From positions 1 through 56,350 of the forward strand of contig NZ_RRYW01000008.1 of the NCBI RefSeq assembly GCF_014861365.1: a DNA stretch of 56,350 nucleotides. The letters are read 5' to 3'. The notes beneath the pieces are model-generated. The model was given only the letters and a program-made list of their open reading frames with translations. It was not told where the DNA came from and searched no databases. Position 1 is the stretch's first letter; each line of letters begins with the position of its first letter. The DNA comes from Psychrobacter sp. FME6 (lineage in GTDB: Bacteria > Pseudomonadota > Gammaproteobacteria > Pseudomonadales > Moraxellaceae). Made by a program: the position numbers and the translations under genes. Of the stretch, positions 3,570 through 22,752 are shown in pieces.

Positions 3570-3709
3570 ACTGGTCCTTTTGAATAGTTTTTATTAACTT
3601 AGGTGGTTTTTTATTGATTTATTATCGCCAAATATAGCTAATGGCTTAAAAAAATGCTTTAAAAATCAATGTTTTAAAAACCAATGTATCGATGACGACA
3701 CTTTAGCTC

Positions 3710-4447: not shown

Positions 4448-4587
4448 AATGGCGGCTACTATTCATAAGAGAGATAATAAAAGTTTGTCAAAACTACCCT
4501 TCATTTTAGCCAGTTCACCGCCATAACTCAACGCTGCATTGCTACTGTTGAGCGATTTTATGAGCAGCGACCTATATATTGGTCAAA

Positions 4588-5238: not shown

Positions 5239-5284
5239 GGTTTTTCCTTAAAATATCGATTACTAACGTAAATTTCCTAGCTGC

Positions 5285-5749
5285 TTAATGAAGCTCAAAA
5301 GAGCGTGCCATTTGTTTAACAATACTTGTCATTTTAGTTTTTTCACTCTCAGGATAGTTCAGATGTAATACTACTTCCTGACCATTATTAACCTTAATAA
5401 CATGATAGAAAACTTGACCATCCTCTCTATAGCCACTTACCGTATAGGTTTTATCTTTTAACCGCTCGTAAGTAACTGTCATGCCTGTTTTATATCGATG
5501 CTGCTTTTCTTTCAGATAATCACTATCTGTATAAAAGAAGACATTTGGTGTATTACTCCCAAAGACCAAAATAGTGGCATTGGAGTTGGGCAACTTAAAA
5601 TGACGACCATCACCATTATCCGCTTCTGGCAACCATTTCAATTGATTTGGCACATCGACACAATAGGCAAATCTTCCATTACAGTAATCACGAGCCATCG
5701 CTAGCTGAGAGCTGCTCAATAAGCAAAATAAAACAAGCAGCCTCTTCAT
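5285..5749 (-). CDS. Small periplasmic protein of unknown function
   Basis: The protein has 154 aa with a Sec signal peptide (MKRLLVLFCLLSSSQLAMA, cleavage likely before RDYCNG). The mature part is about 135 aa with an early Cys pair (DYCNGRFAYCVDVP), which probably forms a disulfide, and a mixed beta-rich pattern with several Tyr and Asn residues. I do not recognise the family. It lies 24 bp after leuC and 46 bp before leuD on the same strand, so it is very likely co-transcribed with both. Nothing in it suggests a catalytic role in leucine synthesis. Confidence 0.75.
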   Translation of the reverse strand: MKRLLVLFCLLSSSQLAMARDYCNGRFAYCVDVPNQLKWLPEADNGDGRHFKLPNSNATILVFGSNTPNVFFYTDSDYLKEKQHRYKTGMTVTYERLKDKTYTVSGYREDGQVFYHVIKVNNGQEVVLHLNYPESEKTKMTSIVKQMARSFELH

Positions 5750-5773
5750 CTTTGTGCTCTATACAACTGTAAA

Positions 5774-7192: not shown

Positions 7193-7341
7193 GTTGCTAT
7201 CCTCATTGGTTGCTAATTGCTTAGTTTTTCACTTACTTGTATGTTTCGCCTGCTTCTGTGTCTCGTATTCTTACTAGGACGTGAGCTAGAATTTGGCTCA
7301 ACGCTGTTCATAATATAAACATCGCTTGGCATAATTCTATA

Positions 7342-7357
7342 GTTATTACTGAATAAC
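7342..7357. promoter_or_regulatory. Dyad in the leuC/lysR divergent spacer, possible LysR-type operator
   Basis: GTTATT-ACTG-AATAAC is a perfect 16-bp dyad in the spacer between leuC and the divergent lysR (7193-7574). LysR regulators bind short AT-rich dyads of the T-N11-A kind in such positions. The rest of the spacer is AT-rich, holds no gene, and shows no leucine-rich leader peptide that would indicate attenuation. Confidence 0.3.
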
Positions 7358-7574
7358 GGTTAAAAAATAAGCTTTATATCGCGACTTACGCCGTAAATAT
7401 AATAAATATGTCACAATACGTCTCGATGTCTTGTGATTATAGCAGGCTAATTCTATAATAATAATTGATGATTTCTTTCTAGACACAAACTTTTATTTCT
7501 AATACATTATTTATCATATCCGCCAACTTTTATTTATAGCTCGCTAAGTAACCCAAGTTACTAAGGAAACTCGT

Positions 7575-8438
7575 TTGAACACCACAAATTTGACGACATT
7601 CGTCACCGTTATGCACACAGGCAGTATCTCAGGCGCAGCAGAAAAGCTGTTTATCACTCAGCCTGCCGTCAGTAAACGCATCAAAAATTTGGAAGATGAG
7701 TTTAACATTACTTTGTTTGATACGGTAGGTCGTGGAATTGTCCCAACCCAAGCGGCTAGTGAGATGCTCCCTCATGCCAAGCGCTGGCTTGAAGACTATG
7801 AAAACTTCAAAATAAACCTGCAGCACTCTCAGCACATTGTGTCTGGTAAGCTGGTCATCGGCACCAGCCACCATATCGGTCTGCATCACCTAGCGCCTGT
7901 ACTCAAACACTTTATTCAAGCCTATCCTGCCGTCCAATTAGAAGTTCACTTTGTCGATTCAGAAAAGGCGCATAAAGCCGTGCTGGATGGTGATTTATCA
8001 TTGGCCTTTGTCACGCTGCCACCAGTTTATGATAAACGCTTGACCTATCACACGCTGTGGTCAGACCCACTTTACTTTATGACGGGCACGCTATCGCCTT
8101 TAGCGACCAAATCCAAAGTGACTTTAGAGCAATTGGCACGTTACCCTGCTATTTTGCCATCAGCCAATACCTTTACCAGTCAAATTACCTTGGCTGAGTT
8201 TGCCAAGCACAACCTAAAGCCTTATGCCACGATGAGCACCAATCCACTCGAGTCTATCCGTATGTTAGTTTCTGTGGGACTCGGCTGGTCAGTATTACCT
8301 CAAACCATGATCAGTCAGGACTTAGAACGTATCGACATGGCAGACAACATTGAACTGCAGCGCTATTTAGGTGTGGTCATCAATCCGAAACTGACACAAT
8401 CTAGCAGTGTTACTGCCTTACTTGCTCCTATTGAATAA
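7575..8438 (+). CDS. LysR-family transcriptional regulator, divergent from leuC
   Basis: The protein has 287 aa. The N-terminal winged HTH (residues 1-60) has the classic LysR pattern FVTVMHTGSISGAAEKLF and TQPAVSKRIKNLE. It is followed by the two-lobed periplasmic-binding-like effector domain (about 90-285). The start is a TTG at 7575, supported by TAAGGAAAC a few bases upstream and by the expected family start. A promoter-like position next to leuC suggests that it controls the leu genes, perhaps with an isopropylmalate-type coinducer as in other leu-linked LysR proteins; this is inference from position. The long 3' spacer means it is probably monocistronic. Confidence 0.88.
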   Translation: MNTTNLTTFVTVMHTGSISGAAEKLFITQPAVSKRIKNLEDEFNITLFDTVGRGIVPTQAASEMLPHAKRWLEDYENFKINLQHSQHIVSGKLVIGTSHHIGLHHLAPVLKHFIQAYPAVQLEVHFVDSEKAHKAVLDGDLSLAFVTLPPVYDKRLTYHTLWSDPLYFMTGTLSPLATKSKVTLEQLARYPAILPSANTFTSQITLAEFAKHNLKPYATMSTNPLESIRMLVSVGLGWSVLPQTMISQDLERIDMADNIELQRYLGVVINPKLTQSSSVTALLAPIE

Positions 8439-8467
8439 AAGTCATTAGAGTCTTCTAGACCGTTTCC

Positions 8468-8518
8468 AAGAGCGCCTTGCATTTTAAAAAGTACTGAATT
8501 CGCAATTAAGGCGCTCTT
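8468..8518. promoter_or_regulatory. 11-bp inverted repeat just upstream of a -10-like hexamer
   Basis: AAGAGCGCCTT (8468-8478) is repeated in inverted form at 8508-8518. A perfect TATAAT follows at 8523-8528, with a 4/6 match to -35 (TTCGCA, 8499-8504) 18 bp upstream. The 29-nt loop and the absence of a T run make a terminator unlikely. It could be an operator for the transcript proposed at 8535-8831 or a weak hairpin closing the lysR mRNA. Confidence 0.35.
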
Positions 8519-8534
8519 ACGTTATAATACGCCT

Positions 8535-8831
8535 GACGTTATTTCTATAACAAAAACTTACTATAACCACACTGATATACATATATTGAACACTTCGAGT
8601 AAGATATGATGGCTAGCAGTAGGGTTTTATTTAATGGTTTTAAATGATTGGTTATATAGGCGGCTGATATTAGTATTTAATTGGCAGATGCGAGCAATCA
8701 AGTTAAGCAGGTAATGCTCTTATTGCTCAAAGCACTACTGATAAGTATTGGCCCTAAAACAGCATCAATCATATAAAACTAACAGAAGATATTGAATAAA
8801 AGCCATTATGTCCTACTTAATGGCTTTTTTT
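8535..8831 (+). ncRNA. Candidate small RNA between lysR and putP
   Basis: The 484-bp spacer 8439-8922 contains no ORF of note, but it has a TATAAT hexamer at 8523-8528 and a strong intrinsic terminator at 8798-8831. Together these would define a free transcript of roughly 290-300 nt. I do not recognise the sequence as a known RNA family. The alternative is that the terminator simply ends a long lysR 3' UTR. Transcript ends are estimates. Confidence 0.22.
8798..8831 (+). terminator. Rho-independent terminator upstream of putP
   Basis: The 11-bp stem AAAAGCCATTA/TAATGGCTTTT (8798-8808 with 8818-8828) is followed by a T run to 8831. It lies 360 bp after lysR and 92 bp before putP, so it insulates putP from upstream transcription. 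Confidence 0.8.
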
Positions 8832-8922
8832 GTCTTTAGATATTGTTTTGGGTATCGTCTTGTAAGACTTAATTTTCTCGTTAAAAATAATGACAGCCAA
8901 CAACATTGGTTAAGGATTTTAT

Positions 8923-10422
8923 ATGAACGGAGTTTCTAGTGGCGTGCTGGTATCACTTGGCGCCTATTTTTTGGTAATGATTGGGATTGGCATTTACGCC
9001 TACTTTAAACAAGCTAATGATACCGAAGGCTACATGCTTGGTGGCCGTAGTCTCGGCCCTGCAGTGACTGCACTGTCAGCAGGCGCGTCAGATATGTCGG
9101 GTTGGTTATTATTAGGCCTACCAGGTGCCATGTATGCTGACGGTGTTGTCAGTGCTTGGATTGCCATTGGTTTGACATTGGGTGCGTTTTTAAACTATAT
9201 CATCGTGGCGCCGCGCCTTCGTGTCTATACCGAAGTCGCAGATAACGCCATTACTTTACCCGATTATTTTGCCAACCGCTTTGAAGATAAGTCGCACATG
9301 CTGCGCGTCATCTCAGCCGTGGTTATCATTTTATTCTTCACTGTTTATACCGCGGCAAGTTTGGTCGGCGGTGGCAAACTCTTTGAAAGCTCGCTCAACC
9401 TCTCTTATAGCACAGGCCTTTGGGTAACGGCTGGTGTGGTCGTCGCTTATACGCTATTTGGTGGCTTCTTAGCCGTTTCAATGACTGACTTTGTACAGGG
9501 CATCATTATGCTGTTTGCAATGGTCATTGTACCTATCGTTGCTTTGACTGACCTCGGTGGTGTTGGAGCAACAACAGATGCCATCAGAGCCATCGATCCA
9601 AGTATGTTAGATATTACTAGTGGTGTTACTTTTCTTGGTGTCGCCTCTTTGCTCGCTTGGGGACTTGGTTATTTTGGTCAGCCACATATTATTGTCCGCT
9701 TTATGGCGATTCGCTCAGTAAAGGACGTCCCAACTGCGCGTAACATCGGTATGAGCTGGATGATCATCAGTCTTATCGGTGCTTGTGTAACAGGTATTGC
9801 TGGTCGCGCTTATGTACAAAAAACAGCGATGACATTAGACGATCCTGAAACAATCTTTTTGGTATTTACCCAATTCTTGTTCCATCCATTGGTGTCTGGT
9901 TTCTTATTAGCAGCTATTTTAGCCGCCATTATGAGTACGATTTCGTCACAACTATTGGTGGTATCAAGCTCACTAACTAAAGACGTTTACAAATTATTCT
10001 TTGATAGAGAAGCACCAGAAGCTCGCCAAGTATTGGTCGGTCGTATCTCAGTAATAGTCGTTGCCGTAGTCGCGATTTTACTTGCTTCTAACCCTGATAG
10101 CTCTGTATTAAGCCTAGTCTCTAACGCTTGGGCAGGGTTTGGTGCTGCATTTGGACCGTTGGTTGTCTTCAGTCTAACCTGGCGCGGTATGAACCGTAAC
10201 GGTGCTGTTGCTGGTATGGTTATCGGTGCATTGACTGTTATCCTATGGGTCTATGGTCCTTTCGAGATGAATGGTATGCCATTAAACAGCTGGTTATACG
10301 CTATCATTCCAGGCTTTATTTTAAGTACTATCGCCATCTTTGCGGTGAGTATTATGACAGGTGGGCCAAAAGCATCTGTTACTGCGAAGTTTAAAGAAAT
10401 GGAAATGAACTTGAATAAGTAA
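8923..10422 (+). CDS. putP: Sodium/proline symporter
   Basis: The protein has 499 aa, an SSS-family (solute:sodium symporter) membrane protein of about 13 helices. The PutP signature is strong: GGRSLGPAVTALSAGASDMSGWL in the first part, then TVYTAASLVGGGKLFE and FGQPHIIVRFMAIRS, with the C-terminal half SNAWAGFGAAFGPLV. It imports proline with Na+ across the inner membrane, for nutrition or osmoprotection. RBS-like AAGGATTTT precedes the ATG. No putA lies alongside. A bidirectional terminator follows. Confidence 0.93.
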   Translation: MNGVSSGVLVSLGAYFLVMIGIGIYAYFKQANDTEGYMLGGRSLGPAVTALSAGASDMSGWLLLGLPGAMYADGVVSAWIAIGLTLGAFLNYIIVAPRLRVYTEVADNAITLPDYFANRFEDKSHMLRVISAVVIILFFTVYTAASLVGGGKLFESSLNLSYSTGLWVTAGVVVAYTLFGGFLAVSMTDFVQGIIMLFAMVIVPIVALTDLGGVGATTDAIRAIDPSMLDITSGVTFLGVASLLAWGLGYFGQPHIIVRFMAIRSVKDVPTARNIGMSWMIISLIGACVTGIAGRAYVQKTAMTLDDPETIFLVFTQFLFHPLVSGFLLAAILAAIMSTISSQLLVVSSSLTKDVYKLFFDREAPEARQVLVGRISVIVVAVVAILLASNPDSSVLSLVSNAWAGFGAAFGPLVVFSLTWRGMNRNGAVAGMVIGALTVILWVYGPFEMNGMPLNSWLYAIIPGFILSTIAIFAVSIMTGGPKASVTAKFKEMEMNLNK

Positions 10423-10451
10423 AAAGTTACTATTTATTGTCTTATAAGTAC

Positions 10452-10486
10452 AAAAAAACCTCGCTATAATTTGGCGAGGTTTTTTA
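10452..10486. terminator. Bidirectional terminator between putP and the Slam gene
   Basis: The 12-bp stem AAAAAACCTCGC/GCGAGGTTTTTT (10453-10464 with 10474-10485) has A and T runs on both sides. It sits between the convergent putP (stop 10422) and the Slam-family gene (stop 10515) and can serve both. Confidence 0.85.
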
Positions 10487-10514
10487 TTATGCGCACATGG
10501 CAATGGACATGTTT

Positions 10515-12092
10515 TTAAAAGCTTTTGGTTAGTAACACGGTCGCAGATTTTTCATCACGATCATCATAGTAAGCAAAATTACTTGAGGTGGTTTCATAAT
10601 CAAACACTAAGCGCGGGGTCAAACCATATACCGTAAAGTCGCGTTTCCACACTTGCAAACCTAAGGAAGCGGTTTTGTCTTTTCTGGTTGAGCCAGGCTC
10701 ACCGCCTACCGCATTGTAGTAGCCTTTCCATGCACCGCTTCCTTCTGGGTAGGCATCTCCAGGATTGTCATATTTTTTTATTCCATAGCCTGCTGTCGCT
10801 AATGTCGAGAGACCACGCTTCCATTCACGTCCCCAACCAGCATTCACAGAATTACGATCGTAACTAATAATACTCGACTTGGGTACATCATTGTTATAAT
10901 TACCAAGCCCACCATAGAAATATTCTTTAGCATCTTTAATATAAAAAGCATTCAACCCCAAGAATCGGCCATCTGTTTTGCGATTTGAATTGCTATCATC
11001 CTCAAAGTTTTCTTTAGAAACAATGCCTGTAGCTGACAGCTTCAATTTAGGCTTGACCCAGCGTGAGCCACTGACCGTTACCCCTTTACGTAAACTGTAA
11101 GGCTCTTCATCATAGTAACGTTTGGTTACAAATGGCGTCACAGAAACATCGTTTTTCGCATCATCATAGCCGACACCAGCAGAGGCTGTGAATAGATAAT
11201 CGTTGTAATCAGTTTCATCCCAATAGCCTTTTAACGAGGCATTACCACCTATCGTTGCATAAAAGTTATCAGGTAAGTTAAAGCGTTTATTTGCACTGCC
11301 GGACACCTGTATACCGTTGGCAGACTTTTGCTCAATCGAGCGCCCTAAGTCAGATTGAATAGATGACGATGGTGCATCATTAATATTACTATCCCTTACA
11401 TAGCTGGCAGAGGCATTGAATCGCCATTTTTCTGAACTATTTATTTGAGACAATGAGTTTTTCACTCTGACCATGACAGGCGCTGGCAAATCAACAGACT
11501 GTAGTTTTAAAAGCTGATCTTTTGCCGCCGCATATTGCTTATCTGCTTGCATGGCGATGGCCATATTCAAGCGTACTGGATGGAAGTCTGGATCTTCCGC
11601 TAACATACCGCGATAAATAGCGATGGCTTGTTTGTTTTTCGCTTCACTGCGATAGACGAGTGCATCAGCAAACTTGATAAGCATTGGATCGTTGATCTCT
11701 AACGCTTTGTAATGGGGAAGTATCTGCTTGACGGTCACCATATCTTGCGCAGCTAATGCATCATTCAAAAACTTGCTAAACGCTGATGGATTGGCTTTTA
11801 AGGCTTCTAAGTTATAAGCAGTTGCAGCGGCAAGTTGTTGACGGCTTCTGATAGCATTCTGTGCCTCTGTATCAGAGACGCTGGTAGAAGGTGCAGTAGG
11901 ATTAGAGACTGACGTTTGGTTCTCACGTTTGAGCAGCTCAGTAGCTTGGTCGAGATCAGGTCCTATCTCTGGTGCGTCTGGTGCGGCTGGGGTGTCTGGA
12001 GCAGCTGGAGCAGCCACAGCTGGCATAGAAACCGCCATCATCGATAGTAAAATAGCGGCTGTGAGAGGTTTGCGCATATATTGATTATTCAT
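10515..12092 (-). CDS. Slam-family surface lipoprotein assembly modifier (TPR plus outer-membrane barrel)
   Basis: The protein has 525 aa with a signal peptide (RKPLTAAILLSMMAVSMPAVAA), a Pro/Ala/Asp-rich spacer, and a helical TPR-like region at about residues 70-225 (ALVYRSEAKNKQAIAIYRGM, VRLNMAIAMQADKQYAAA). From about residue 235 it is an outer-membrane barrel that begins KWRFNASASYVRDSNINDAP and ends LVFDYETTSSNFAYYDDRDE followed by KSATVLLTKSF. This architecture matches Slam (DUF560) proteins, which move lipoproteins to the outer leaflet in Neisseria and Moraxella. The neighbouring genes encode lipoproteins with TbpB-like barrels, the known type of Slam client, which strengthens the call. 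The start has AAGGATACCC upstream. The exact client range is unproven. Confidence 0.85.
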   Translation of the reverse strand: MNNQYMRKPLTAAILLSMMAVSMPAVAAPAAPDTPAAPDAPEIGPDLDQATELLKRENQTSVSNPTAPSTSVSDTEAQNAIRSRQQLAAATAYNLEALKANPSAFSKFLNDALAAQDMVTVKQILPHYKALEINDPMLIKFADALVYRSEAKNKQAIAIYRGMLAEDPDFHPVRLNMAIAMQADKQYAAAKDQLLKLQSVDLPAPVMVRVKNSLSQINSSEKWRFNASASYVRDSNINDAPSSSIQSDLGRSIEQKSANGIQVSGSANKRFNLPDNFYATIGGNASLKGYWDETDYNDYLFTASAGVGYDDAKNDVSVTPFVTKRYYDEEPYSLRKGVTVSGSRWVKPKLKLSATGIVSKENFEDDSNSNRKTDGRFLGLNAFYIKDAKEYFYGGLGNYNNDVPKSSIISYDRNSVNAGWGREWKRGLSTLATAGYGIKKYDNPGDAYPEGSGAWKGYYNAVGGEPGSTRKDKTASLGLQVWKRDFTVYGLTPRLVFDYETTSSNFAYYDDRDEKSATVLLTKSF

Positions 12093-12167
12093 GGGTATCC
12101 TTACCTAAGTACGATCTATAAATTTCCAAACATAAGTATCCTAAGGGATTTTAGTCGTTTAAGCGAG

Positions 12168-12193
12168 AAAAAAAGCGCCCTAGGACGCTTTTT
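12168..12193 (-). terminator. Terminator between the first giant lipoprotein gene and slam
   Basis: The stem AAAAAGCG/CGCTTTTT (12170-12177 with 12186-12193) encloses a CCCTAGGA loop, and the T run follows on the minus strand. It lies about 25 bp past the lipoprotein stop, so slam would need read-through or its own promoter. Confidence 0.75.
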
Positions 12194-12218
12194 CTTTACT
12201 CTGTACAGTCACAGCGAT

Positions 12219-15200
12219 TTATTGCTTTTCGGCACCAAAGGTTCCTTGGAATTTAGTACCGGTTCCAGCAACAGTCCCTTTACCCCCTTGGTCTGCAGCA
12301 TCTTGATAAATACCACCTAAGAACTGTGCATCTTCGCCGTAGAAACCACCAGCGGTATCGATACCATTTTTATTGCCAGCAAAGGTGTTGCCTGTGATGT
12401 CTGCATCGATTTTTATTTCATTGCCAGCAGGCATATATTTATAGTCACCATCATCAAACGCTAATGTACCATCAACTGAGCCATTAACGAAGTCAACATT
12501 GAAAGCAGAAGTTCCATTCTCTGGCGCAGTAGAAGCGTTATCATCCAGATGAATATTTTCAATATAAGTCGCCATACCATGATACTGAGCTGTACCATCG
12601 TTGACATTCTTCAGGTTATCCATACCTGCTTGAGAAGTCAGATAGCCTTCTACATAGACGTTGGCAGCGCGTGAGACATCGCCTGCAGCTGAATCGAAGT
12701 TACCATAAACATGACCAACCTGCATTTGTGAATCAAAGTTCTCATAAACAGCGTTATATTTATAAGTTGGATTAAAAGTACCTTTACCTGCATCTACTTT
12801 GATTTGGCCACTTGAATTGGTCAAGGACACTTCAATAGGTGTTAGTACAGAGTCAGGCTTGACCATATCGGCACGAACCACACCAGTATTGAAGCTCTTG
12901 AAGTTATCACCTTTACGATTATCCACTGGTACTTCAGAACCATTTTCCGTTTTCAGTTCAGTCCAAGCAGATTTATCATCGCGAATTTCAACATAGCCGA
13001 TAGCATTATCAAGCTGACCTTGGCCAAATGGTAACGTTTTCTCTTTACTACTCAGTGCTGTAGACTGAAACCCTGTCATTTTCGACTCTGTTGGATCTGG
13101 CACTACTTCGACCGATGGATCTAGCTTGTTGGCGCCATAAGTGCCTTTGATATAGTTGGTACCTTTGGTTTCTCTTTCGTAGACACCACCTAACAGCCCA
13201 GCACCTTTTCCGAAGAAACCACCGACAGTATTGACAGCCGCGCTTTCCTCACTAGCAAAGGTGTTATCAGATATAGTTGCTGCAATATCAACTTGCTTAT
13301 CAGCAAAATCTAGCTCACCTTTTACTGACTTGGCTACAAAATCAACGTCGAATTTAGAGCTACCATCGACTGCTATTTTCCCACCTTCTACGTAGGTAGC
13401 TACCCCTTTATAATTGGCCTTACCTTCATTGACGTTGGTTAATTTATCCATATCTCCAAGGTTGGTGGCATTACCTTGTACGTAGGTAGCAGAAAGATTT
13501 CTGTCAAAAGCTATACCATTTTTGACTCTACCGTCGACATGGCCAATTTGCATTTGATCATCGAAGTTTTTATAGACTGAGGTATAATTCAAATCTCGAT
13601 TGTAAATGATCCCTGTTCTGGAGCCTTGGACATTAACATTGCCTGTATGTACTTTAAAACCATTTTTGTTATTGTCATAAACCTCGTCTTCAGCGCCATT
13701 ATTAACACCTCTTAGCTCAACGTCTATCGGTGCTAGAACCGCTTTTGAGTCTATCTCATTAGCTCGAATTCTTAGAGTATTGTAGCTAGCAGAGTTATTA
13801 TCAAAGATTCTATCTGAGGCATCTAAAGAAGTACTCTGAACACCAGAAATCTTAGAGTCTGGTGCACTAAACTGATTGGCAGCTTCTAAAGCTTTTTCTT
13901 CTGCCGCTTCAGCTCTAGCGATCGCTTCATCTCTTGAAGTTTCAGCACTAGCCTTAGCTTTTAAGGCATCTTCTTTAGCCTTGTCTGCTTCAGTTTTGGC
14001 AGTTTCTGCTGCAGCCTTAGCGTCCTCTGCTACTTTTTGAGCCTGTAGCGCTTTTTCTTTAGCTTCTTTTTGAGCTTGAGCATCACCTATTGCTTGTTCA
14101 GCCGCTTTTTCTGCCGACATTTTAGCCTGTTCAGCAGCGACTTGTGCGGCTTGAGCAGCAGCTCTTGCCGCCTCTGCAGTCTCTGCAGCTTGTAACGCTG
14201 CGGCTTCCGCGACTTCTGCGGCTTCTGCGCGGGCCAATGCAGCGGCTAGACCACCATCTCCTGTACCAGCATTCGCTAAGGCATCTTCAGCGGCAGCCAA
14301 GGCGGCTTGAGCTTTAATAGCATCCGCTTTGGCTTTGTCAGCAGCGGCTTGAGCTGCATTCGCTTGGGCATTAGCATCGGCGATAGCAGCTTGAGCGTTA
14401 TCAGCATCGGTTTGAGCGTCTGCTGCCGCTTGTTCTGCTGCGGTTTGTTTGTCACTCTTGGCACCATAGGTACCCTGAGCGCCATTACCTTCGTAGACAC
14501 CGCCTAGGTACTGTCCATCACCGCCAAAGAATCCACCTTCGGTGTTATAGCCAGCATTATCATCAGCGGTACCTGAGAATTGGTTGCCATTGATGCCAGC
14601 GGTTAAACCAATCTTACCGGCCTTATCAAAGGTGAGATCGCCTTTGACGTTTTGAGCCACAAAGTCAGCAGTGAATACTGATTTGCCAAATTCGATATCA
14701 TTACCAATGCCTAGCTGACGATGAGTGGCATCACCTGTGTAACCAACTTTACCGTCGGTTGGCATGTTCGCCGCTTGAGTTGCACTACCAACGACAGCGA
14801 CGCCATCTACAGGAATTTCAGTGCCTTGGAGTTCTGCGGCACCATCGATGTGAGCAATGCGCATGTCATCACCATAGTCTTTATACACTGAGGTATAAGT
14901 TAATGGCAACTCTCCTAAAGCAGTTGTAATAGAAGTACTGTCATCATGGCTTTTGAACCCATTAGCAAGCTCGGTATCTCCTGCACCTGAAATATTGACA
15001 TCAACTTTAGGTAGTAGATCTCCAGAAGCTACGTCAGCACGAGCTATGACATTATTTTCACCAATCTCAAAATCACGGGTCGTTACTATAAAGTCACTTG
15101 GTAAACCCGCAGCTGTTGTACCTACATTAATAGACTGAGCACCTGACTTCTTAGTTTCAGGAGCATTGTTGATTTGTGCGGCAGCTAACGCATCCTTGGC

Positions 15201-16688
15201 GGCTTGCGTTGCTTGGTTGGCAGCAGCTAACTGTGCTTCGGCGGCGGCAGCGGCATCAGCTTGAGCTTGCTTGGTAGCAATGATTTTAGCATTTGCTGTG
15301 TCTAGTGCCGCTTGGCGACGATCCACTTCTGCCTGCAGGGCTTCGGTGTTGCCACCACCTGAGGCCAGTGCGTCTGCTAGGGCTTTTTCGGCGGCAGCTA
15401 ACTCTTCTTGTGCAGTCGTTAACTCGCCTTTGGCTTTATTGGCTTCGGCTTGGGCTTTTTCTGCCTTTTTCTTTTCAGCTTGGGCTTGGGCTTGGGCAGC
15501 CGTTGCTGCTTGCTCTGCGTTTTGTTTGGCTAGTAATGCTTCCTCAGCTTTCTCAGCTTCTAATTTAGCAGTAGCTTCCGCTGCTTCTATACGTGTTTGA
15601 GCAGCGGCGGCATCTTCCTCTGCTTTTTCAGCACGTGCCTGAGCGTCTGCCGCCTCTTTTTTGGCAGCATCAATTTGGGTTGCGGAGGCAGTTTTGACAG
15701 CGTCAAGTTTGGCTGCAGCTTCTTTAAGGGCAGCATCTGCAGCATCCGCAGCAGCTTTTGCAGCCACTTTTGCAGCAGTAATTGCTTTAGCTTCTGCAGT
15801 TTCGAGTGCGTCTTGGGCATCTTTTGCAGCTTTCTTAGCCTCAGCAATCTGGCTCGCTGATGCTTTTTCTATATCTGCAACCTTCTTATCAGCCTCAGTC
15901 CTAGCAGCTTTCGCATCTTTAACTGCTTTTGCTGCTTTTTCTTCTGCTGTCTTAGCATTAGCTTGAGCCTTTTTAGTTTCAGCTTCTGCGGCTTTGGTTT
16001 TTACTTGCGCTGCTTTTTTCGCCGCTATTTCAGCTTTTAGCGATGCTTCGACCTCTTTAGCCTTGGTTTCTGCTACTGTTGCACGATTATCTGCTGCTTT
16101 GGCTTTTTCTTCAGCGGCTTTGACTTTAGCGACTGCATCGGCTGCTGTTTTTTTAGCATCGTCCACTTTTGTCTTAGATGCCTTCGCAGCGGCTTCGATT
16201 TTCGTGACAGCCTCCACTCGAGCTGCTTCTGCGGCGGTTTTCGCTTTCGCTGCCTCTTCTTTTGCAGCATCAATTGCTTTTCTTGATGCTTCTGATGCTT
16301 TCTCTGATTCTTTACCAAAACCTGCCTCTGCTGCTTTTAAAGCTGCCTCTGCTACTTTGGTTTTTGCTTCTGCTACTTTAAGCGCTTCTTCTGCAGCTTT
16401 GGTTTTTGCTTCCGCAGCTTTAATCGTTTTTTCTGCTTCAGTAGTAGTACCAACCCCACCTCCATCAGATCCACTACCGCCTGAACCTTCACCCTCAGCC
16501 ACTCCTCCAGTTCCGTTATTATCTACTGGGATTGTAGGAGTGGGTTTAGGTGTAATAGCGTTATCTCCACTGCTAGAGGAGCATGAAGCCAAAATAACGG
16601 TAGTCAAAATAACCACACTGGCCTTGAGTGGGGTCTTTAGTGTTTTTGCTGTAGATACAGCCGATACTGAATAACGGTTAGGTGACAT
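12219..16688 (-). CDS. Giant surface-lipoprotein candidate A: two coiled coils and three TbpB-like barrels
   Basis: The protein has 1489 aa. The start is ATG at 16688 (MSPNRYSVSA), chosen because GGAGGAAGACGA lies directly upstream and an identical start is used by the sister gene; the frame is open 29 codons further but without support. The lipoprotein signal ends in LASC (about residue 36) followed by Ser/Gly-rich sequence. Residues ~80-503 are an Ala/Lys/Glu coiled coil. Barrel 1 spans ~504-744, coiled coil 2 ~745-936, barrel 2 ~938-1188 and barrel 3 ~1198-1489. Each barrel ends like TbpB-family domains, GGFYG or GGFFG, LGG(V/I)Y, then GT(Y/F)GA. With slam adjacent it is probably exported to the cell surface. 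Ligand unknown; no TonB-dependent receptor gene lies beside it. Confidence 0.82.
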   Translation of the reverse strand: MSPNRYSVSAVSTAKTLKTPLKASVVILTTVILASCSSSSGDNAITPKPTPTIPVDNNGTGGVAEGEGSGGSGSDGGGVGTTTEAEKTIKAAEAKTKAAEEALKVAEAKTKVAEAALKAAEAGFGKESEKASEASRKAIDAAKEEAAKAKTAAEAARVEAVTKIEAAAKASKTKVDDAKKTAADAVAKVKAAEEKAKAADNRATVAETKAKEVEASLKAEIAAKKAAQVKTKAAEAETKKAQANAKTAEEKAAKAVKDAKAARTEADKKVADIEKASASQIAEAKKAAKDAQDALETAEAKAITAAKVAAKAAADAADAALKEAAAKLDAVKTASATQIDAAKKEAADAQARAEKAEEDAAAAQTRIEAAEATAKLEAEKAEEALLAKQNAEQAATAAQAQAQAEKKKAEKAQAEANKAKGELTTAQEELAAAEKALADALASGGGNTEALQAEVDRRQAALDTANAKIIATKQAQADAAAAAEAQLAAANQATQAAKDALAAAQINNAPETKKSGAQSINVGTTAAGLPSDFIVTTRDFEIGENNVIARADVASGDLLPKVDVNISGAGDTELANGFKSHDDSTSITTALGELPLTYTSVYKDYGDDMRIAHIDGAAELQGTEIPVDGVAVVGSATQAANMPTDGKVGYTGDATHRQLGIGNDIEFGKSVFTADFVAQNVKGDLTFDKAGKIGLTAGINGNQFSGTADDNAGYNTEGGFFGGDGQYLGGVYEGNGAQGTYGAKSDKQTAAEQAAADAQTDADNAQAAIADANAQANAAQAAADKAKADAIKAQAALAAAEDALANAGTGDGGLAAALARAEAAEVAEAAALQAAETAEAARAAAQAAQVAAEQAKMSAEKAAEQAIGDAQAQKEAKEKALQAQKVAEDAKAAAETAKTEADKAKEDALKAKASAETSRDEAIARAEAAEEKALEAANQFSAPDSKISGVQSTSLDASDRIFDNNSASYNTLRIRANEIDSKAVLAPIDVELRGVNNGAEDEVYDNNKNGFKVHTGNVNVQGSRTGIIYNRDLNYTSVYKNFDDQMQIGHVDGRVKNGIAFDRNLSATYVQGNATNLGDMDKLTNVNEGKANYKGVATYVEGGKIAVDGSSKFDVDFVAKSVKGELDFADKQVDIAATISDNTFASEESAAVNTVGGFFGKGAGLLGGVYERETKGTNYIKGTYGANKLDPSVEVVPDPTESKMTGFQSTALSSKEKTLPFGQGQLDNAIGYVEIRDDKSAWTELKTENGSEVPVDNRKGDNFKSFNTGVVRADMVKPDSVLTPIEVSLTNSSGQIKVDAGKGTFNPTYKYNAVYENFDSQMQVGHVYGNFDSAAGDVSRAANVYVEGYLTSQAGMDNLKNVNDGTAQYHGMATYIENIHLDDNASTAPENGTSAFNVDFVNGSVDGTLAFDDGDYKYMPAGNEIKIDADITGNTFAGNKNGIDTAGGFYGEDAQFLGGIYQDAADQGGKGTVAGTGTKFQGTFGAEKQ

Positions 16689-17295
16689 TCGTCTTCCTCC
16701 ATGAAGAATTAGTGATATTCTATTATTTAACCCTTGAAGCACAACATAAATCCGGTGCTTTGAATAGATAAACAAATCGCCTACAAAAAGTCAAACTTTA
16801 TTATTCAAATATTTCTATAGGTAACTTTTAGTTACTAATTAGCTTAAAAACACCTCTTAACCAAGATAAGATGTATCGAAATTATGGACTAAAAATATAG
16901 TTTACATCAGACACTATTTTAAATTAATAAATATCCTTGATAAGAATTAGCCCAACAAACCCTTAGAATATCGAATAAAAACAACTGTATACTGAATTAA
17001 ATAAGCTATTAATCTTTATAGTTATATATCTAAATAAATGTTTTAAATTAAAAAACAGTGTATTGAGCTTGCCTATTTTAGTAAAAACCAACCTATATAC
17101 TTATAGAATATCTTTTTAAAATTTTGCTCTATCCAGCATCAAAAACCATAGAAACCCTCCTGAAGTTTGATAAATATCACATACTATTACTAAAAACCTG
17201 ACTTTATAGACAAACATTAGTTTAAAAATACACGGTATATCGTTTTAATCGTTTTATTCTGATAGCTTTGATGTATGAAACATAATTTAAGGCAT
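16689..17295. other. AT-rich spacer between the two giant lipoprotein genes
   Basis: About 600 bp of very AT-rich sequence with no credible ORF. It must hold the promoter of lipoprotein A on the minus strand; I see no single convincing -35/-10 pair. The segment next to the gene carries the shared leader CATGGAGGAAGA. Confidence 0.5.
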
Positions 17296-17321
17296 AAAAA
17301 AAAGCACCCTAAGGTGCTTTT
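17296..17321 (-). terminator. Terminator of giant lipoprotein gene B
   Basis: AAAAGCACC/GGTGCTTTT (17300-17308 with 17313-17321) closes a CTAA loop, and a T run follows on the minus strand (complement of 17296-17303). It lies about 25 bp beyond the stop, the same geometry and a similar sequence to the terminator of lipoprotein A. Confidence 0.85.
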
Positions 17322-17346
17322 CTTATTCAAAAGCTTTCATATTAAT

Positions 17347-20300
17347 TTATTGCTTTTCAGCGCCAAAGGTACCTTGGAAGGTTGTTCCGGTTCCAGGAGT
17401 AGTACCCGTTCCTGGTACGCCGTCTTCACCATCAAGTTGAGCTTCTTGGTAGATACCGCCTAAGAAATTAGCATCCTCGCCATAGAAACCACCTGAGGTC
17501 TCAACATTACCCTCTCTACCAGCAAAGGTATTACCTTCAATATTAGCCTTAATATCAATATTTTTGTCAATATCAGCAAAGTCTAATTTGCCTGATAAAG
17601 AGTTATTGACGAAATCAACGTCAAAATTAGATTCGCCATTGACCACTGGATTGTTTATAGCGCCTGAACCTAAATGAATATTATCCATATAGGTCGCGAC
17701 ACCAGCATATTGAACATTACCATCGTTGATGTTGTTATCAATATTATACTGAGCTTGCTGTTGCATGTAGTCCATATCAGCTTGAGCAGTACTGTTGCCC
17801 ACTACGTAAACGTTGGCATAACGTGATTTCACACCACCGAATGGATTCTCTTTACGAAGATCTCCGTAAACGTGACCTATCTGCATCTGTGAATTAAAGT
17901 TCTTATATACAGAATCATAGTCATATTTTAGTTCAATATCACCAACAATAGATCCAACTTCCTCGAAAGTGACCGTATTCTGACCATCAGATTTCATGAA
18001 ACCACTATCAGCATCAAAAGCGATATCACTGTCTCTAACGGTTGTAATTGTAGCTGTTTGCTTGAATTTGTTAGGTTTAACAATATCAAGACGGGCTTCA
18101 AACTGATCATAGCCTGGCAAGTTATCTATAGTATTATCTTCAACTATGGTCGGCGTCATGTCTTCGCCTTCACCAGTTGTCTCAGTAAAAGTTTCATTGT
18201 CTGTAACAAACTGACGGAAACCAATCGCATCCTCAGTACCCAATCCTGATTCGCTACTAATGGTGTTACTCATAACGCCAGTCACATCTTCGTTAGCTGG
18301 ATCACCAGGATTGACAGGGGGTTCTGGCAACTCTGGCTCTACTGGGGTATCTACGTCGGCTGGTGTACCATCTTTCTCAGCGCCAAAGGTACCTTGCGAC
18401 TCATTACCTTCGTAGATACCACCGATGTAATTAGCATCTTCACCGTAAAAAGCGCCTTCTGTGTTGTAGTCACCTTTTTTACCTGAGAACTCATTGCCAT
18501 CAATAGCTCCTTCCAGCGCAATATCACCCGCTTGAGCAAACTTCAGTGTACCGTCGACTTTTTTGTCAACAAAGTCAGCGGTAAACTCTGAGCTACCATA
18601 TTCAATCTCATTGTCTAAACCGACTTTGCGATTGGTGGCGTCACCTGCATATTCAAACTTACCCTCTGTCGGTAAGGTCGCTGTCTTATTACCCACTACA
18701 GCTACCCCATCTACAGGGACTGTAATTGCTCCACCTCCTGCACTGACGGCACCGTCAATATGAGCAATGCGCATCTCACCATTTTCACCAAAGTCTTTAT
18801 AGACTGAGGTGTAAGCTAGATCGCCTTCTGCTAATACAGTGGCTGTATCCTCGTGAGATTTAAAGCCGTTGGCTGTGTCAATATCATTTTCTCCAGAAAC
18901 CTTAATGGCTATAGGTTCTGGAACTACACCTTCAAGCGCTAAGTCGGCACGAGCATCGACATCAGAAGTACTACGGATAGCAAAGTCACGAGTTGTTGTT
19001 GCTTTAACGCCTTGACCTAGACCGCTTGCATCGACAGATAGATGCTGAACCCCTGATTTCTCTGTTTCGGCTTCAGACTTATATTCATCTGGATTGTTTA
19101 TTGCATCTAACTTATCTTGCAACTCTTGAGCTTTCTTTTCCGCTGCTGCTGCTTCTGCTGCTGCTGCTGTCGCTCTATCCTCGGCTGCCTTAGTATCTCC
19201 TTCCGCCTCCTTTTGAGCGGCTTTAGCTTTTCTAGCTTCTTCTTTGGCTAGGTCTGCTGCTTTGTTAGCTTCGGCTACATCTTCTTTTGCAGCTGACTTT
19301 GCAGCTGCCACTTTGGCTGCTGCATCTTTTTCAGCAGCTTCTGCCTCTGCTTTAGCGGCGGCAGCGGTGTTTTTAGCAGCTGCTGCTTCTGACTGAGCTG
19401 CCGCGACTTTATCTTGTGCCGCTTTCACTTCTTCTTGTGCTTTTTCTGTAGCTTCCTGGATTGCAATTTTTGCATCTGCTTCGGCTTTCTCAGCTGCTTT
19501 CTCAGCCGCTTCTGCTCTATCTAAAGCATCTTGAAGTGCTTCATCATCACCGCCACTACCTGCATTATCCGCAGCTTCTTGGGCTTTCTTTGCAGCTTCT
19601 TGGGCTTTTGCAGCGTCAGCCTGGGCTTTTTCTGCAGCGGCTTGCGCTTGTGCCGCTTGATCTTTAGCATTGGCTAAGGCTTCTTCTGTAGCATCTGCCT
19701 TTCCAGCCGCTTCTTTAGCATCTTCCTCAGCTTTAATTTGAGCGTCAGATTTCGCTCCATAAGTACCTTGAGCGCCGTTACCTTCGTATATACCGCCTAC
19801 GTATTGACCATCGCCACCATAGAATCCACCGTCGGTATTATAATCGTCTTTGCTCCCTGAGAACTTATTACCATCAATGTCTGCTTCTAAACCAATGTTC
19901 TTATCACTAAAGGTTAAGTCACCTTTGATATTCTTGGCTACAAAGTCAGCGGTGAATACTGAGGTACCAAATTTAATATCTTTATTTTGACCAGTTTCAC
20001 GATAAGTTGCATCACCCGTGTAACCAACTTTACCTTCTGTCGGCATGTTCTCAGCTTGGGTCGCATTACCCACCACAGCAACACCGTTGACTGGTAACAA
20101 ACCAGCAGCAGCACCATCAATATGGGCAACTCTTAAGTCATCGCCAAAATCTTTATAGGTTGAGGTATAAACTAGATCGACTTCACCTAATGAAGAAGTA
20201 TTAACTTTGGTCGTATTTTCAAAAGATTTGAAGCCATTAGATTCCGCTACTACATCGTCGTTATCACCACTAACTTTTAATGCTACCGGATCAGAAACTA

Positions 20301-21075
20301 AGCCACCTGAAGCTTCATCTGCGCGTGCATCTACTTGGGTTTCATCTGTGATATCAAAGTCACGAGTAGTAGTCGTTAATGCCCCCTGGCCTAAACCAGA
20401 CGCATCGATACTGATGTGTTGGACACCAGTTTTCACAGATTCTGGAGCATTTTTAATCTCTGCATCCTGTGCTGCATCCTGTGCAGCTTGTTGGGCTGCT
20501 TGGGCTGCTGTCGCTTCTGCCTCTGCTTTTTGCTGAGCAGCTTGTGCAGCGGCTTCAGCAGCTTGCGCGTCTGCCTTTGCTTCTTCTGCTAGCTTGGCTT
20601 TGCGGTCGGCTTCTTTTTGTAGGGCCTCTGAACCCCCACCATTTGCTAAAGCGTCTTCTAACGCTTTTTCTGCTTCTTCTTGTGCTTTAATAGCTTCTGC
20701 TTTGGCTTTTTCAGCCGCAGCGGCGGCAGCTTCAGCCTCTTGCTGAGATTTGATAGCCGCATCTGCTTTTTCTTCAGCTGCTTTTTCAGCGGCAGCTATT
20801 TGCTCAGCCGCCTCTTTCTTCGCAGCCTCGGCTTCTTCTCTTGCTTTTTTGGCTTCCTCTTTAGCCTTTTCAGCCTCAGCTTTTGCTTTTTCTAGTGCTG
20901 CATCAGTCGCGCCAGGTATTGGGCTGAAGACATCATCAAGATTATAAGAAGGATCGTCAGTTGTATTACAGGCGGCGAGTATCATTGATGTTAAAAGCAC
21001 AACACTGGCTTTTAAAGGGGTTTTGAATTTTTTAGCTGTCGATACAGCTGAGATTGAATGACGGTTAGGTGACAT
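17347..21075 (-). CDS. Giant surface-lipoprotein candidate B: two coiled coils and three TbpB-like barrels
   Basis: The protein has 1242 aa. The start MSPNRHSISAVSTAKKF at 21075 is preceded by GGAGGAAGAAGA. The lipobox is LAAC (about residue 36). Coiled coil 1 (~55-208) is rich in KAEAEKAKEEAKK-type heptads. Barrel 1 spans ~208-443, coiled coil 2 ~445-660, barrel 2 ~670-900, then a Pro-rich linker (VEPELPEPPVNPGDP) and barrel 3 ~930-1242. Barrel ends read GGFYGGDGQYVGGIY, GAFYGEDANYIGGIY and GGFYGEDANFLGGIY, then GTFGAEKQ at the C-terminus, as in TbpB-like domains. It is clearly paralogous to lipoprotein A. Predicted Slam client at the cell surface; binding partner unknown. Confidence 0.82.
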   Translation of the reverse strand: MSPNRHSISAVSTAKKFKTPLKASVVLLTSMILAACNTTDDPSYNLDDVFSPIPGATDAALEKAKAEAEKAKEEAKKAREEAEAAKKEAAEQIAAAEKAAEEKADAAIKSQQEAEAAAAAAEKAKAEAIKAQEEAEKALEDALANGGGSEALQKEADRKAKLAEEAKADAQAAEAAAQAAQQKAEAEATAAQAAQQAAQDAAQDAEIKNAPESVKTGVQHISIDASGLGQGALTTTTRDFDITDETQVDARADEASGGLVSDPVALKVSGDNDDVVAESNGFKSFENTTKVNTSSLGEVDLVYTSTYKDFGDDLRVAHIDGAAAGLLPVNGVAVVGNATQAENMPTEGKVGYTGDATYRETGQNKDIKFGTSVFTADFVAKNIKGDLTFSDKNIGLEADIDGNKFSGSKDDYNTDGGFYGGDGQYVGGIYEGNGAQGTYGAKSDAQIKAEEDAKEAAGKADATEEALANAKDQAAQAQAAAEKAQADAAKAQEAAKKAQEAADNAGSGGDDEALQDALDRAEAAEKAAEKAEADAKIAIQEATEKAQEEVKAAQDKVAAAQSEAAAAKNTAAAAKAEAEAAEKDAAAKVAAAKSAAKEDVAEANKAADLAKEEARKAKAAQKEAEGDTKAAEDRATAAAAEAAAAEKKAQELQDKLDAINNPDEYKSEAETEKSGVQHLSVDASGLGQGVKATTTRDFAIRSTSDVDARADLALEGVVPEPIAIKVSGENDIDTANGFKSHEDTATVLAEGDLAYTSVYKDFGENGEMRIAHIDGAVSAGGGAITVPVDGVAVVGNKTATLPTEGKFEYAGDATNRKVGLDNEIEYGSSEFTADFVDKKVDGTLKFAQAGDIALEGAIDGNEFSGKKGDYNTEGAFYGEDANYIGGIYEGNESQGTFGAEKDGTPADVDTPVEPELPEPPVNPGDPANEDVTGVMSNTISSESGLGTEDAIGFRQFVTDNETFTETTGEGEDMTPTIVEDNTIDNLPGYDQFEARLDIVKPNKFKQTATITTVRDSDIAFDADSGFMKSDGQNTVTFEEVGSIVGDIELKYDYDSVYKNFNSQMQIGHVYGDLRKENPFGGVKSRYANVYVVGNSTAQADMDYMQQQAQYNIDNNINDGNVQYAGVATYMDNIHLGSGAINNPVVNGESNFDVDFVNNSLSGKLDFADIDKNIDIKANIEGNTFAGREGNVETSGGFYGEDANFLGGIYQEAQLDGEDGVPGTGTTPGTGTTFQGTFGAEKQ

Positions 21076-21366: not shown

Positions 21367-22752
21367 TTACTGGCTTTGATAAGAGAGTTTTACACCAGCG
21401 ATATAACCATCATTGTCTTCGGCTTTACTGACGATACTACCGTTGGGTAGCTGACCTGTTGCATCACCAAATTTCAGATATTTGCCACCGACTGACACGG
21501 CCCACTCAGGAGTCACGTTGTATTTCACACCACCACCCAAGCTATAATAACCGTCAATAGTACCCAATGAGCTGACAGGATCGCCTGCACCAGAGTCATA
21601 ACCAACTGTTACGGAACCCGCTAGCTTTTCATTAAAACGTTTGGCCAAACCAACATCTACTTTCCATTGGTCTTTGTCATAGGATAAAAGTGGTAAACCG
21701 TCTGGGTCAGCCGCTTTAGAATAAGCATTATAAAGCGGAGGGACGATAGTGAAATCGCTCCAAGGTACCCAGCGCACATCTACAGTACCTAATAGTTGAT
21801 ACTTCTCACTTAGACCAGTTTGAATATTTAAATTCACTGACTCAGGTGTGGTTACAGTCGCATCGGTCGTTGCATATTCACCAATAGACTGGCCAAGTTC
21901 AGAGTCTGGGTCAATATCAAGCTTACCTAACGCTATATCTTTTAGCGGTGATCCTAGTAATGGTACTCTTTCGCCCACTGGGGTTTTATGCTTAATTTCT
22001 GAGCGATAAGTTAGTGCCGCATTTAAGGCAATTTCAGGTTTACTATAGGCTAAACCCGCTACCCAACCGTAGTCAGTGTCAGGGTTTACATTGGCATCAT
22101 AGCCTGTCAATGGGCCGTATGCCTGACCTCGCAGATGCACATCTGCTTTCACTTTTTGCATCACTGGACCACCATATACTTGGAAGCCATTAGCTTTGTA
22201 ACCAAGCAGCCCTGTCCACGTTTCCGTATGCACACTGACGTTGGTGTTTTTGTCATAGTCTGGATCTAATACTGAAGGGTTGATGACTTCATTAGGAACA
22301 GATGTCCCTGACGATGAGTCAGCAATGGTATCTTTGCCTGCTTGAGAAACAAAAGCATTATCCCCAGAGTATTCTACTTCTGCACCAAAAGGCTCGTCAT
22401 AAAACACACCGATACTGAAATTTTCATTAATGTCAGTTTTTACCCCGTAGCGCATAAAACTATAGGAATCTGGAGTAGCGTTGCCAGTTGACACACCTTT
22501 TTCGTAAGCCGCTTCTGTAGAAGTGATACCATTACGAATCTCGTCAGTTGGGGTAACGATAGCACCGGCATTGTCATGTGCTGAAACATCAGTATCGATA
22601 TAAGCAAAATCAACTTCGGCATAAGTACCAGGGTTAAAGAAGCCTTTGATTTCTTGGCCTGAACGATCGAGGCCAGCGGCTTGTGTTAGTGATGCAGCAG
22701 ATAGGGTGATAAGGGCTAGAGTGAGCTTAGAAATAGGGAAATTTTGCGACAC
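21367..22752 (-). CDS. FadL/OmpP1-family outer-membrane transporter, no helical insert
   Basis: The protein has 461 aa. The start is GTG at 22752 (MSQNFPISK), with GGAGGATGTCAC upstream. A signal peptide (KLTLALITLSAASLTQA) is followed by the hatch-like N-terminus AGLDRSGQEIKGFF. A barrel pattern follows, with FadL-family features such as VFYDEPFGAEVEYSG, LTYRSEIKHKTPVGE, VRWVPWSDFTIVPPLYN and a glycine-rich end (GYYSLGGGVKYNVTPEWAVS). FadL proteins take up hydrophobic molecules such as fatty acids or aromatics across the outer membrane; the substrate here is not readable. It lies upstream of lipoprotein B on the same strand and shares its CATGGAGGA leader. Confidence 0.85.
   Translation of the reverse strand: MSQNFPISKLTLALITLSAASLTQAAGLDRSGQEIKGFFNPGTYAEVDFAYIDTDVSAHDNAGAIVTPTDEIRNGITSTEAAYEKGVSTGNATPDSYSFMRYGVKTDINENFSIGVFYDEPFGAEVEYSGDNAFVSQAGKDTIADSSSGTSVPNEVINPSVLDPDYDKNTNVSVHTETWTGLLGYKANGFQVYGGPVMQKVKADVHLRGQAYGPLTGYDANVNPDTDYGWVAGLAYSKPEIALNAALTYRSEIKHKTPVGERVPLLGSPLKDIALGKLDIDPDSELGQSIGEYATTDATVTTPESVNLNIQTGLSEKYQLLGTVDVRWVPWSDFTIVPPLYNAYSKAADPDGLPLLSYDKDQWKVDVGLAKRFNEKLAGSVTVGYDSGAGDPVSSLGTIDGYYSLGGGVKYNVTPEWAVSVGGKYLKFGDATGQLPNGSIVSKAEDNDGYIAGVKLSYQSQ

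Follow-up and report, generated by a model that had tools for sequence, protein, structure and literature searches.

What do two lipoproteins of 1489 and 1242 residues, encoded beside a Slam translocator gene, do in Psychrobacter sp. FME6, probably at its cell surface, and which outer-membrane protein (OMP) might serve them? The question is raised by a stretch of 56,350 nucleotides (assembly GCF_014861365.1, contig NZ_RRYW01000008.1, positions 1 to 56,350 of the forward strand), which is called the window here. A sequence-only reading had placed both lipoprotein genes next to a Slam-family gene and had credited each product with a lipobox and three TbpB-like barrels; the open reading frames are as described, and the lipoboxes, LASC in lipoprotein A and LAAC in lipoprotein B, have Cys36 in both proteins. 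In our judgement, A and B are very probably Slam-exported, stalked, multi-module surface lipoproteins. A four-gene surface cassette, consisting of the Slam, the two module-on-stalk lipoproteins and an outer-membrane protein, Omp1, as their own barrel, is the whole explanation we propose, and we hold its chances to be slightly short of even. The genes and modules of the translocator and its putative clients are the following:

10515-12092, minus strand: Slam, type 11 secretion system (T11SS) outer-membrane translocator, 525 residues (PF04575 and PF24575 TPR_Slam)
12219-16688, minus strand: lipoprotein A, 1489 residues from its ATG, three modules, lipobox LASC (open reading frame, Pfam, NF041636)
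14460-15170, minus strand: module A1, residues 507-743, N-type half of the module tree (profile, tree)
13131-13871, minus strand: module A2, residues 940-1186, penultimate, other half of the tree (profile, tree)
12222-13100, minus strand: module A3, residues 1197-1489, C-terminal type (profile, tree)
17347-21075, minus strand: lipoprotein B, 1242 residues, three modules, lipobox LAAC (open reading frame, Pfam, NF041636)
19753-20454, minus strand: module B1, residues 208-441, N-type half of the tree (profile, tree)
18379-19080, minus strand: module B2, residues 666-899, N-type half of the tree (profile, tree)
17350-18306, minus strand: module B3, residues 924-1242, C-terminal type (AlphaFold2, structure comparison)

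The Slam protein possesses both parts that define the family, a C-terminal SlipAM (DUF560) barrel and an N-terminal TPR domain; in Pfam, PF04575 matched with an E-value of 1e-59 over positions 1-288 of 288, and TPR_Slam (PF24575) with 3.2e-26 over positions 5-104 of 104. No solved structure was matched by the Slam sequence alone at E ≤ 0.001. A profile search detected a single Slam in the whole genome (3.36 Mb, 268 contigs), and the six genome-wide matches to PF01298 (TbpB_B_D) at E ≤ 1 all fall in A and B, with 49.1-64.1 bits (curated cut-off 26). Each lipoprotein contains three stretches matching PF01298 and three matching the NCBI model NF041636 (“Slam-dependent surface lipoprotein”), which bears out the three barrels proposed earlier; the module limits, drawn here by eye on motifs, are close to the residue ranges given then. 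The terminal pattern quoted at that time (GGFYG, LGGIY, GTFGA) is right in type, whereas its exact letters fit some modules only because the pattern is degenerate (GGF[FY]G or GAFYG .. [LVI]GG[IV]Y .. GT[FY]GA). Chance is no serious alternative for the Slam and the A and B assignments.

A lipobox, a TbpB-type barrel and a gene adjoining slam, the hallmarks of Slam-dependent TbpBBD cargo, are all found for A and B; the expected one or two barrels per protein, carried by all Slam-dependent lipoproteins on the list in PMC5449769 (Hooda 2017), are exceeded by the three present here. AlphaFold2 predicted module B3 with a predicted local distance difference test (pLDDT) score of 89 and a fold resembling the TbpB C-lobe. 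The handle-barrel fold matches ligand-binding clients, namely TbpB as the closest solved fold, hemophilin and HpuA, and an fHbp-like fold was also among the matches. We rejected the view of the modules as the two lobes of TbpB: they form two lineages mostly by position, and for A and B neither a TbpB_A nor a TbpB_C handle was returned, TbpB_B_D being the only such domain at E ≤ 1 with filters that drop most matches above 0.1. The absence of an adjoining TonB-dependent receptor gene, claimed before, also held up, as none occurs among the 26 proteins scanned with Pfam (6 + 10 + 10, the last two sets at E ≤ 1e-5) out of 48 window frames of at least 100 residues, including all five of more than 600 residues.

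Scanning named genomes with a profile of the C-terminal module yielded 20 loci, 16 of them in Psychrobacter (P. celer, P. okhotskensis, P. glaciei, P. immobilis, P. maritimus, P. phenylpyruvicus, P. pasteurii, P. lutiphocae and unnamed strains) and four weak ones (one in Haemophilus, three in Neisseriaceae). Outside Psychrobacter but in the same family the profile matched weakly in two genera (11 genomes, best E-value 2.2e-14, frames of 135-1127 residues). When module B3 served as the query of a protein search, 109 proteins matched at E ≤ 0.001; they come from Psychrobacter wherever the organism was stated and are usually named “transferrin-binding protein-like solute binding protein”. A model combining the six modules of A and B found 43 frames with one to five modules in 20 regions of 17 relatives (L numbers denote regions, G numbers genomes); complete-looking frames have 360-2666 residues, the longest, in L047, comprising five modules.

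A tree of 114 modules (106 different) separates 57 N-type rows from 57 others with support of 100/100; A1, B1 and B2 belong to the N-type half, and A2, A3 and B3 to the other. The two halves mostly, not strictly, follow position, first modules in the non-N half being found for example in L038_16418, L045_05726 and L044. B3 does not cluster with the last modules of the B-class genes of L041 and L047 but with those of the larger genes next to them, suggesting exchange between paralogues. Successive N-type modules within one protein of L043, L045 and L041 recur every 550-552 residues at a DNA identity of 99.5-100%, indicating recent tandem duplication; all within-protein identical rows of the tree are N-type. 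Among the relatives, L044 (the second locus of G034, 4694-10588) is a solitary four-module lipoprotein of 1965 residues with a 773-residue Ala-rich stalk, long branches for three of its four modules, and nothing in its 20-kb stretch that matches a gene neighbouring A and B in the window, the Slam and OMP genes among them. In L048 (G056, 5963-11673), a draft genome, the Slam and the larger lipoprotein are each split into two frames by decay or sequencing error.

The sequence-only reading, which is supported in part as a whole, missed the Ala-rich stalks between the modules, as well as Omp1 directly upstream. Four stalks are present in the window:

15171-16451, minus strand: N-terminal Ala-rich stalk of A, probably helical, about residues 80-506, GGG at 444-446, 60 residues before module 1 (composition, period of 3.65, Gly spacing)
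13872-14459, minus strand: inter-module Ala-rich stalk of A, 196 residues, Gly at +65 (composition, Gly spacing)
20455-20910, minus strand: N-terminal Ala-rich stalk of B, about residues 56-207, GGG at 146-148 (composition, model, Gly spacing)
19081-19752, minus strand: inter-module Ala-rich stalk of B, 224 residues, Gly at +65 (composition, model, Gly spacing)

These stalks consist of 35-43% alanine, and when Ala and LIVMF are counted together each of the four has a periodicity of 3.49-3.65 that exceeds the 95th percentile of shuffles. The column profile of 42 pre-module segments (39 different) peaks at 3.51, a height reached by 0 of 1000 column shuffles, and that of 28 post-module segments (25 different) at 3.54, reached by 1.2% of 1000. 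In an AlphaFold2 model of B (residues 50-1242), the stalks are helices broken at glycines (9-95, 100-157, 395-459, 462-530 and 557-611 of the modelled piece). A glycine occupies residue 65 after the module in all 27 Ala-rich inter-module segments passing the filter, and the last glycine run precedes the module by 59-62 residues in 27 of 36 Ala-rich segments, the remaining nine distances being 126 (three), 154-167 (four) and two of another kind; the rows are related, partly tandem copies and are not independent. Eleven segments between N-type modules are 303-307 residues long, yet only 42-88% identical between genomes (median 61%). The strict spacing therefore places many heads between Gly-bounded segments of about 60 and 64 residues, and from the sequences we infer an antiparallel helical stem of about 60 residues, hinged at glycines, under the heads. 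Long antisense frames opposite the Ala-rich coding (15271-15600, 15661-15966, 15994-16674 and 20207-20536) look like by-products of repetitive codons.

Spacers of different chemistry are interchangeable, as judged from their sequences (Ala-rich helix, PT/TDP/VDP repeats, collagen-like GAT). The first spacer of 39 of 45 proteins, the six without lipobox being excluded, was classed as Ala-rich in 16, Pro-rich in 15, G/T-rich in two and other in six. The B-class gene, recognised by its N-terminus NTT[DE][DE]PSYNL.., has an Ala-rich spacer in the window, L041 and L047, (TDP)n plus (VDP)n in L037 and (TP)n in L039. The TDP repeats belong to L037_13047, a short TEP/TDP tract occurs in L038_07432, and two other genes (L040, L053) carry collagen-like GAT/GDT repeats. 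The swapped spacers of B-class genes connect A and B with the “Psychrobacter surface proteins” described in PMC12282271, as proteins of the same kind with a different stalk.

Omp1, its paralogues and the flank of the site on the putP side are located as follows:

21367-22752, minus strand: Omp1, OmpP1/FadL-like outer-membrane barrel, present only with the cassette (OMP tree, genome profile search)
23236-24717, minus strand: Omp2, core OmpP1/FadL-like paralogue outside the cassette (PF03349, 2.7e-9)
25236-26726, minus strand: Omp3, core Omp2 paralogue outside the cassette (kinship; no Pfam match at E ≤ 1e-5)
8923-10422, plus strand: putP-like sodium:solute symporter, conserved gene bordering the cassette site (PF00474, 1.5e-103)

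In relatives the genes are arranged as leuC - LysR - putP, then Slam - lipoproteins, then OmpP1/FadL-like OMPs - small open reading frame - ABC-F, with one to four lipoproteins per cassette. putP adjoins Slam in 13 and an OMP adjoins the lipoproteins in 16 of the 20 regions; the others end at contig ends, except L044, where all of these neighbours are missing. The cassette is patchily distributed, occurring in 21 of 100 Psychrobacter genomes, a count combined from several searches, with a family sample that covers only part of the 100. G055, with a 3.2-kb contig and no Slam detected, was included for two modules alone and G064 for pieces at contig ends, and the PF01298-positive genomes G029, G040, G072, G073, G078, G082, G083, G088 and G092 were classed as having other client types by frame length and score alone. 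In all 20 Slam-negative genomes examined, picked mainly for few contigs, putP adjoins the OMP cluster; Slam was not matched at that site, nor PF01298 anywhere in these genomes.

Closely related strains with and without the cassette delimit what is gained and lost. Between G053 (no cassette) and G098 (cassette) the flanks are 99.2% identical over 2590 bp and 98.1% over 2392 bp of DNA, and the OMP between them is 91-92% identical; from that OMP to the putP side there are 728 bp in G053 versus 10.5 kb with Omp1, both lipoproteins and Slam in G098. G090, G043 and G008 show the same empty-site pattern (644-719 bp, flanks 97-99% identical), and the 728-bp tract has no convincing similarity to the cassette (best E-value 0.27). 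These flanks, near-identical with and without the block, indicate that Slam, lipoproteins and Omp1 come and go as one block in this group. A Slam remnant between putP and the OMP in G016 (L107, 4463-4672; residues 456-525, 74% identical, three in-frame stops) is evidence of a lost cassette.

Paralogues of Omp2 adjoin putP in Slam-negative genomes too. Of the 77 OMPs placed in a tree, 40 come from Slam-positive and 37 from Slam-negative loci; three frames shorter than 350 residues, one Slam-positive and two Slam-negative, were left out. The Omp1 clade of this tree comprises 14 rows, all Slam-positive, with support of 100/100; a fifteenth, long-branched row joins at 98/91, possibly by false placement. 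Slam-negative members are likewise absent from a further group, which has four rows drawn from other Slam-positive loci (support 86/100). Searching the 100 genus genomes with an Omp1 profile gave 794-966 bits in 15 genomes and at most 526 for every other match; the Omp1 type is present in 15 of the 21 cassette genomes and in none of the 79 others. No usable solved structure was found with the Omp1 profile (best E-value 0.3, penicillin acylase). From its place and distribution Omp1 could take the TonB receptor's part as outer-membrane partner, and whether it is the functional partner of the lipoproteins is, in our estimate, an evenly balanced matter. In L051 (G077, 3201-17671), an Omp1-type gene lies between two lipoprotein genes, and tandem Slam genes are 41% and 74% identical to that of the window. 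Residues ~140-230 of Omp3 are Ala-rich and probably helical, and the DNA that encodes them shares its repeat families with the lipoprotein stalks, with copies near 26077-26195. On inspection by eye, Omp2 too contains a helix-like stretch of this sort.

Taken together in a mechanism, A and B would cross the inner membrane by Sec and be lipidated at Cys36, as their lipoboxes suggest. Slam would recognise the C-terminal module and move the unfolded chain, the barrels folding outside, by analogy with published work on TbpB, where passages of PMC9090332 describe movement of unfolded TbpB by Slam with Skp as holdase and propose a C-terminal specificity motif of the client. Ala-rich helices of fixed Gly-bounded length, the spacing being seen in the sequence and the structure predicted, would hold the N-type modules off the cell as repeated heads. 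The heads may capture a ligand, probably hydrophobic or lipid-like, and pass it to the barrel of Omp1, as the co-inheritance suggests, in a TonB-free analogue of TbpB with TbpA. OmpP1/FadL-type channels transport hydrophobic compounds, so the ligand is by analogy most likely to be a lipid, a fatty acid or a hydrocarbon. That such a hydrophobic compound is relayed to Omp1 is possible but doubtful. TonB-independent capture and uptake in full, with lipoprotein arms whose repeated heads on Gly-hinged antiparallel stems of about 60 residues feed a co-inherited OmpP1/FadL-type channel, and with interchangeable stalks and tandem-duplicated heads, we regard as unlikely in all its parts at once.

A number of observations weigh against the cassette explanation. 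Six of 44 last-listed modules are N-type (L038_07432, L046_14983, L053_08241, L055_02327, L055_04304 and L056_02933), so that not every protein ends in a C-type module. By the pattern used, no lipobox was recognised in two relatives with three modules next to the cassette, L038 16418-19333 and L045 5726-8647 (frames of 972 and 974 residues), which may be secreted rather than lipid-anchored. With LIVMF alone the period exceeds shuffles in the two stalks of A, not in the two of B. The AlphaFold2 model of B has a mean pLDDT of 66.5 and a predicted template modelling (pTM) score of 0.36, and the other four models average 43-49 pLDDT, for which reason the overall arrangement of heads and stalks is not established by the model. 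A search for the Fur box (19-bp consensus, at most three mismatches) gave no match in the window, a result that neither supports nor excludes a nutrient role; iron control of the cassette is not supported by it, and equally not excluded. PF03349 matches five of 13 members of the Omp1 clade (best E-value 1.9e-9), and the window Omp1 has no match at E ≤ 0.01; since neither it nor, at E ≤ 1e-5, Omp3 has a match of its own, the designation FadL-like rests on kinship to Omp2 and five relatives. Omp1 is not obligatory, as six of the 21 cassette genomes are without it (G021, G034, G037, G055, G061 and G068). Where a Slam was seen at the site of these genomes it is 56-62% identical to that of the window, as against 74-88% in the Omp1 genomes compared; Omp1 presence thus follows the Slam lineage, and common descent may explain part of the pattern.

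The last points would be accounted for if Omp1 were a mere neighbour, one copy of an ancestral core OMP cluster that diverged beside the Slam genes, a somewhat improbable reading that nevertheless has to be taken seriously. OmpP1/FadL-like paralogues do flank putP in 20 of 20 Slam-negative genomes, and it is the more distant Slams that occur without Omp1. However, none of the 37 Slam-negative OMPs falls in the Omp1 clade, Omp1 lies inside the block that is missing from strains with 97-99% identical flanks, and the Omp1 of nine of 12 relatives is 81-92% identical to the window's (66-70% in the other three).

Stalk swapping and module amplification, which we also count against the cassette explanation, suit an adhesin equally. 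A and B might be stalked adhesins or a biofilm scaffold, with modules binding a surface or glycan with avidity, stalks giving reach and Omp1 incidental, which is conceivable and rather unlikely. The replacement of one spacer chemistry by another, unrelated one fits reach better than ligand transfer, the near-identical duplicated modules of three relatives agree with this reading, and an adhesin hypothesis is mentioned for the PTD motifs in passages of PMC12282271; yet the handle-barrel fold resembles ligand-binding clients, and co-inheritance with a specific OMP is left unexplained. Quite improbable are surface decoys that vary to counter phage, predators or host immunity, their changing length and head number serving to hide or mimic other receptors: the spread of one to five modules and 360-2666 residues, the patchy presence and the fHbp-like fold among the structural matches agree with them, whereas stalk lengths and glycine positions are strictly kept, unlike in a freely varying coat, and direct evidence for such a target is lacking. 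That A and B are no Slam clients at all but periplasmic proteins tethered to the outer membrane, for which it may be said that no Slam client of such size is known to have been tested, is very improbable given their adjoining Slam gene, the threefold NF041636 matches in each, the TbpB-like C-terminal module and the lack of any further Slam or PF01298 protein in the genome.

As to expression of the cassette genes, the A and B genes are separated by one gap:

16689-17346, no strand: A+T-rich gap of 658 bp, 26.3% G+C, with a terminator-like hairpin after B (hairpin read by eye)

The hairpin, with a T-run, lies 3' of the lipoprotein B gene, and the lipoprotein A gene probably has a promoter of its own. 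Scans of the window for promoters (33 sites versus 22.9 ± 5.0 in shuffles) and terminators (12 versus 12.5 ± 3.9) were not used as evidence, apart from the hairpin read by eye. Elsewhere in the window, a sensor kinase with a phosphonate-type periplasmic binding domain (51265-53472; PF12974 and HisKA) adjoins cytochrome c genes (53573-55902).

The cassette explanation can be set beside known systems. With TbpB (and TbpA) of Neisseria and Pasteurellaceae the lipoproteins share the handle and eight-stranded barrel, the lipoprotein nature and, probably, dependence on Slam; they differ by three or more modules, long stalks and an OmpP1/FadL-like OMP instead of an adjoining TonB receptor. PMC8406197 gives 75.1% of the cargo of subcluster 1A as lipidated with two barrels. 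The predicted T11SS cargo in PMC12282271 (2025) includes “Psychrobacter surface proteins”, which have two or three handle-barrel pairs and about 12 PTD repeats. They come from the same genus as A and B and are likewise Slam/T11SS-linked lipoproteins with several handle-barrel pairs, and a TDP-repeat form occupies the same place in relative L037. The published proteins have N-terminal PTD repeats, whereas the window's have Ala-rich stalks and relatives with up to five modules. Pls-like cargo in the same source (helical repeats with an EEARKA-motif helix; a 525-residue protein was tested) likewise has a long repeat-rich helix ahead of the barrel; here, in contrast, Ala-rich segments lie between modules too. 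With OmpP1/FadL/TodX transporters the connection is PF03349, matched in Omp2 and in five of 13 Omp1-clade members, and the difference is the candidate pairing with Slam lipoproteins.

FadL and OmpP1 do not occur in the main text of PMC12282271, and the relevant passages of that paper contain neither an Omp1 partner nor module lineages nor Gly-bounded stalk lengths. Among the matches listed, the open-licence literature contained no pairing of OmpP1/FadL with Slam lipoproteins and, for T11SS/Slam and Psychrobacter surface lipoproteins, no other work on this cassette. The earlier statement that multi-barrel clients of this size are not a described class does not stand as worded, since PMC12282271 names such proteins; five-module relatives of up to 2666 residues, interchangeable stalks with fixed Gly-bounded lengths in the probably helical ones, the two module lineages and the block with Omp1 do go beyond it. 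The cargo group is already known, and the stalk form, the larger module numbers and the candidate partner Omp1 are new; the proteins are therefore a known cargo group in a new form.

If the proposed explanation is true, the cargo of Slam is not confined to two barrels at most, and the translocator may be faced with chains of 1,200-2,700 residues that include long helices, so that the limits of translocation become testable. A TbpB-type lipoprotein would gain a candidate partner other than a TonB receptor, and the fixed 60/65-residue segments around many heads, together with swappable stalks, would constitute a natural experiment on the reach and avidity of surface proteins.

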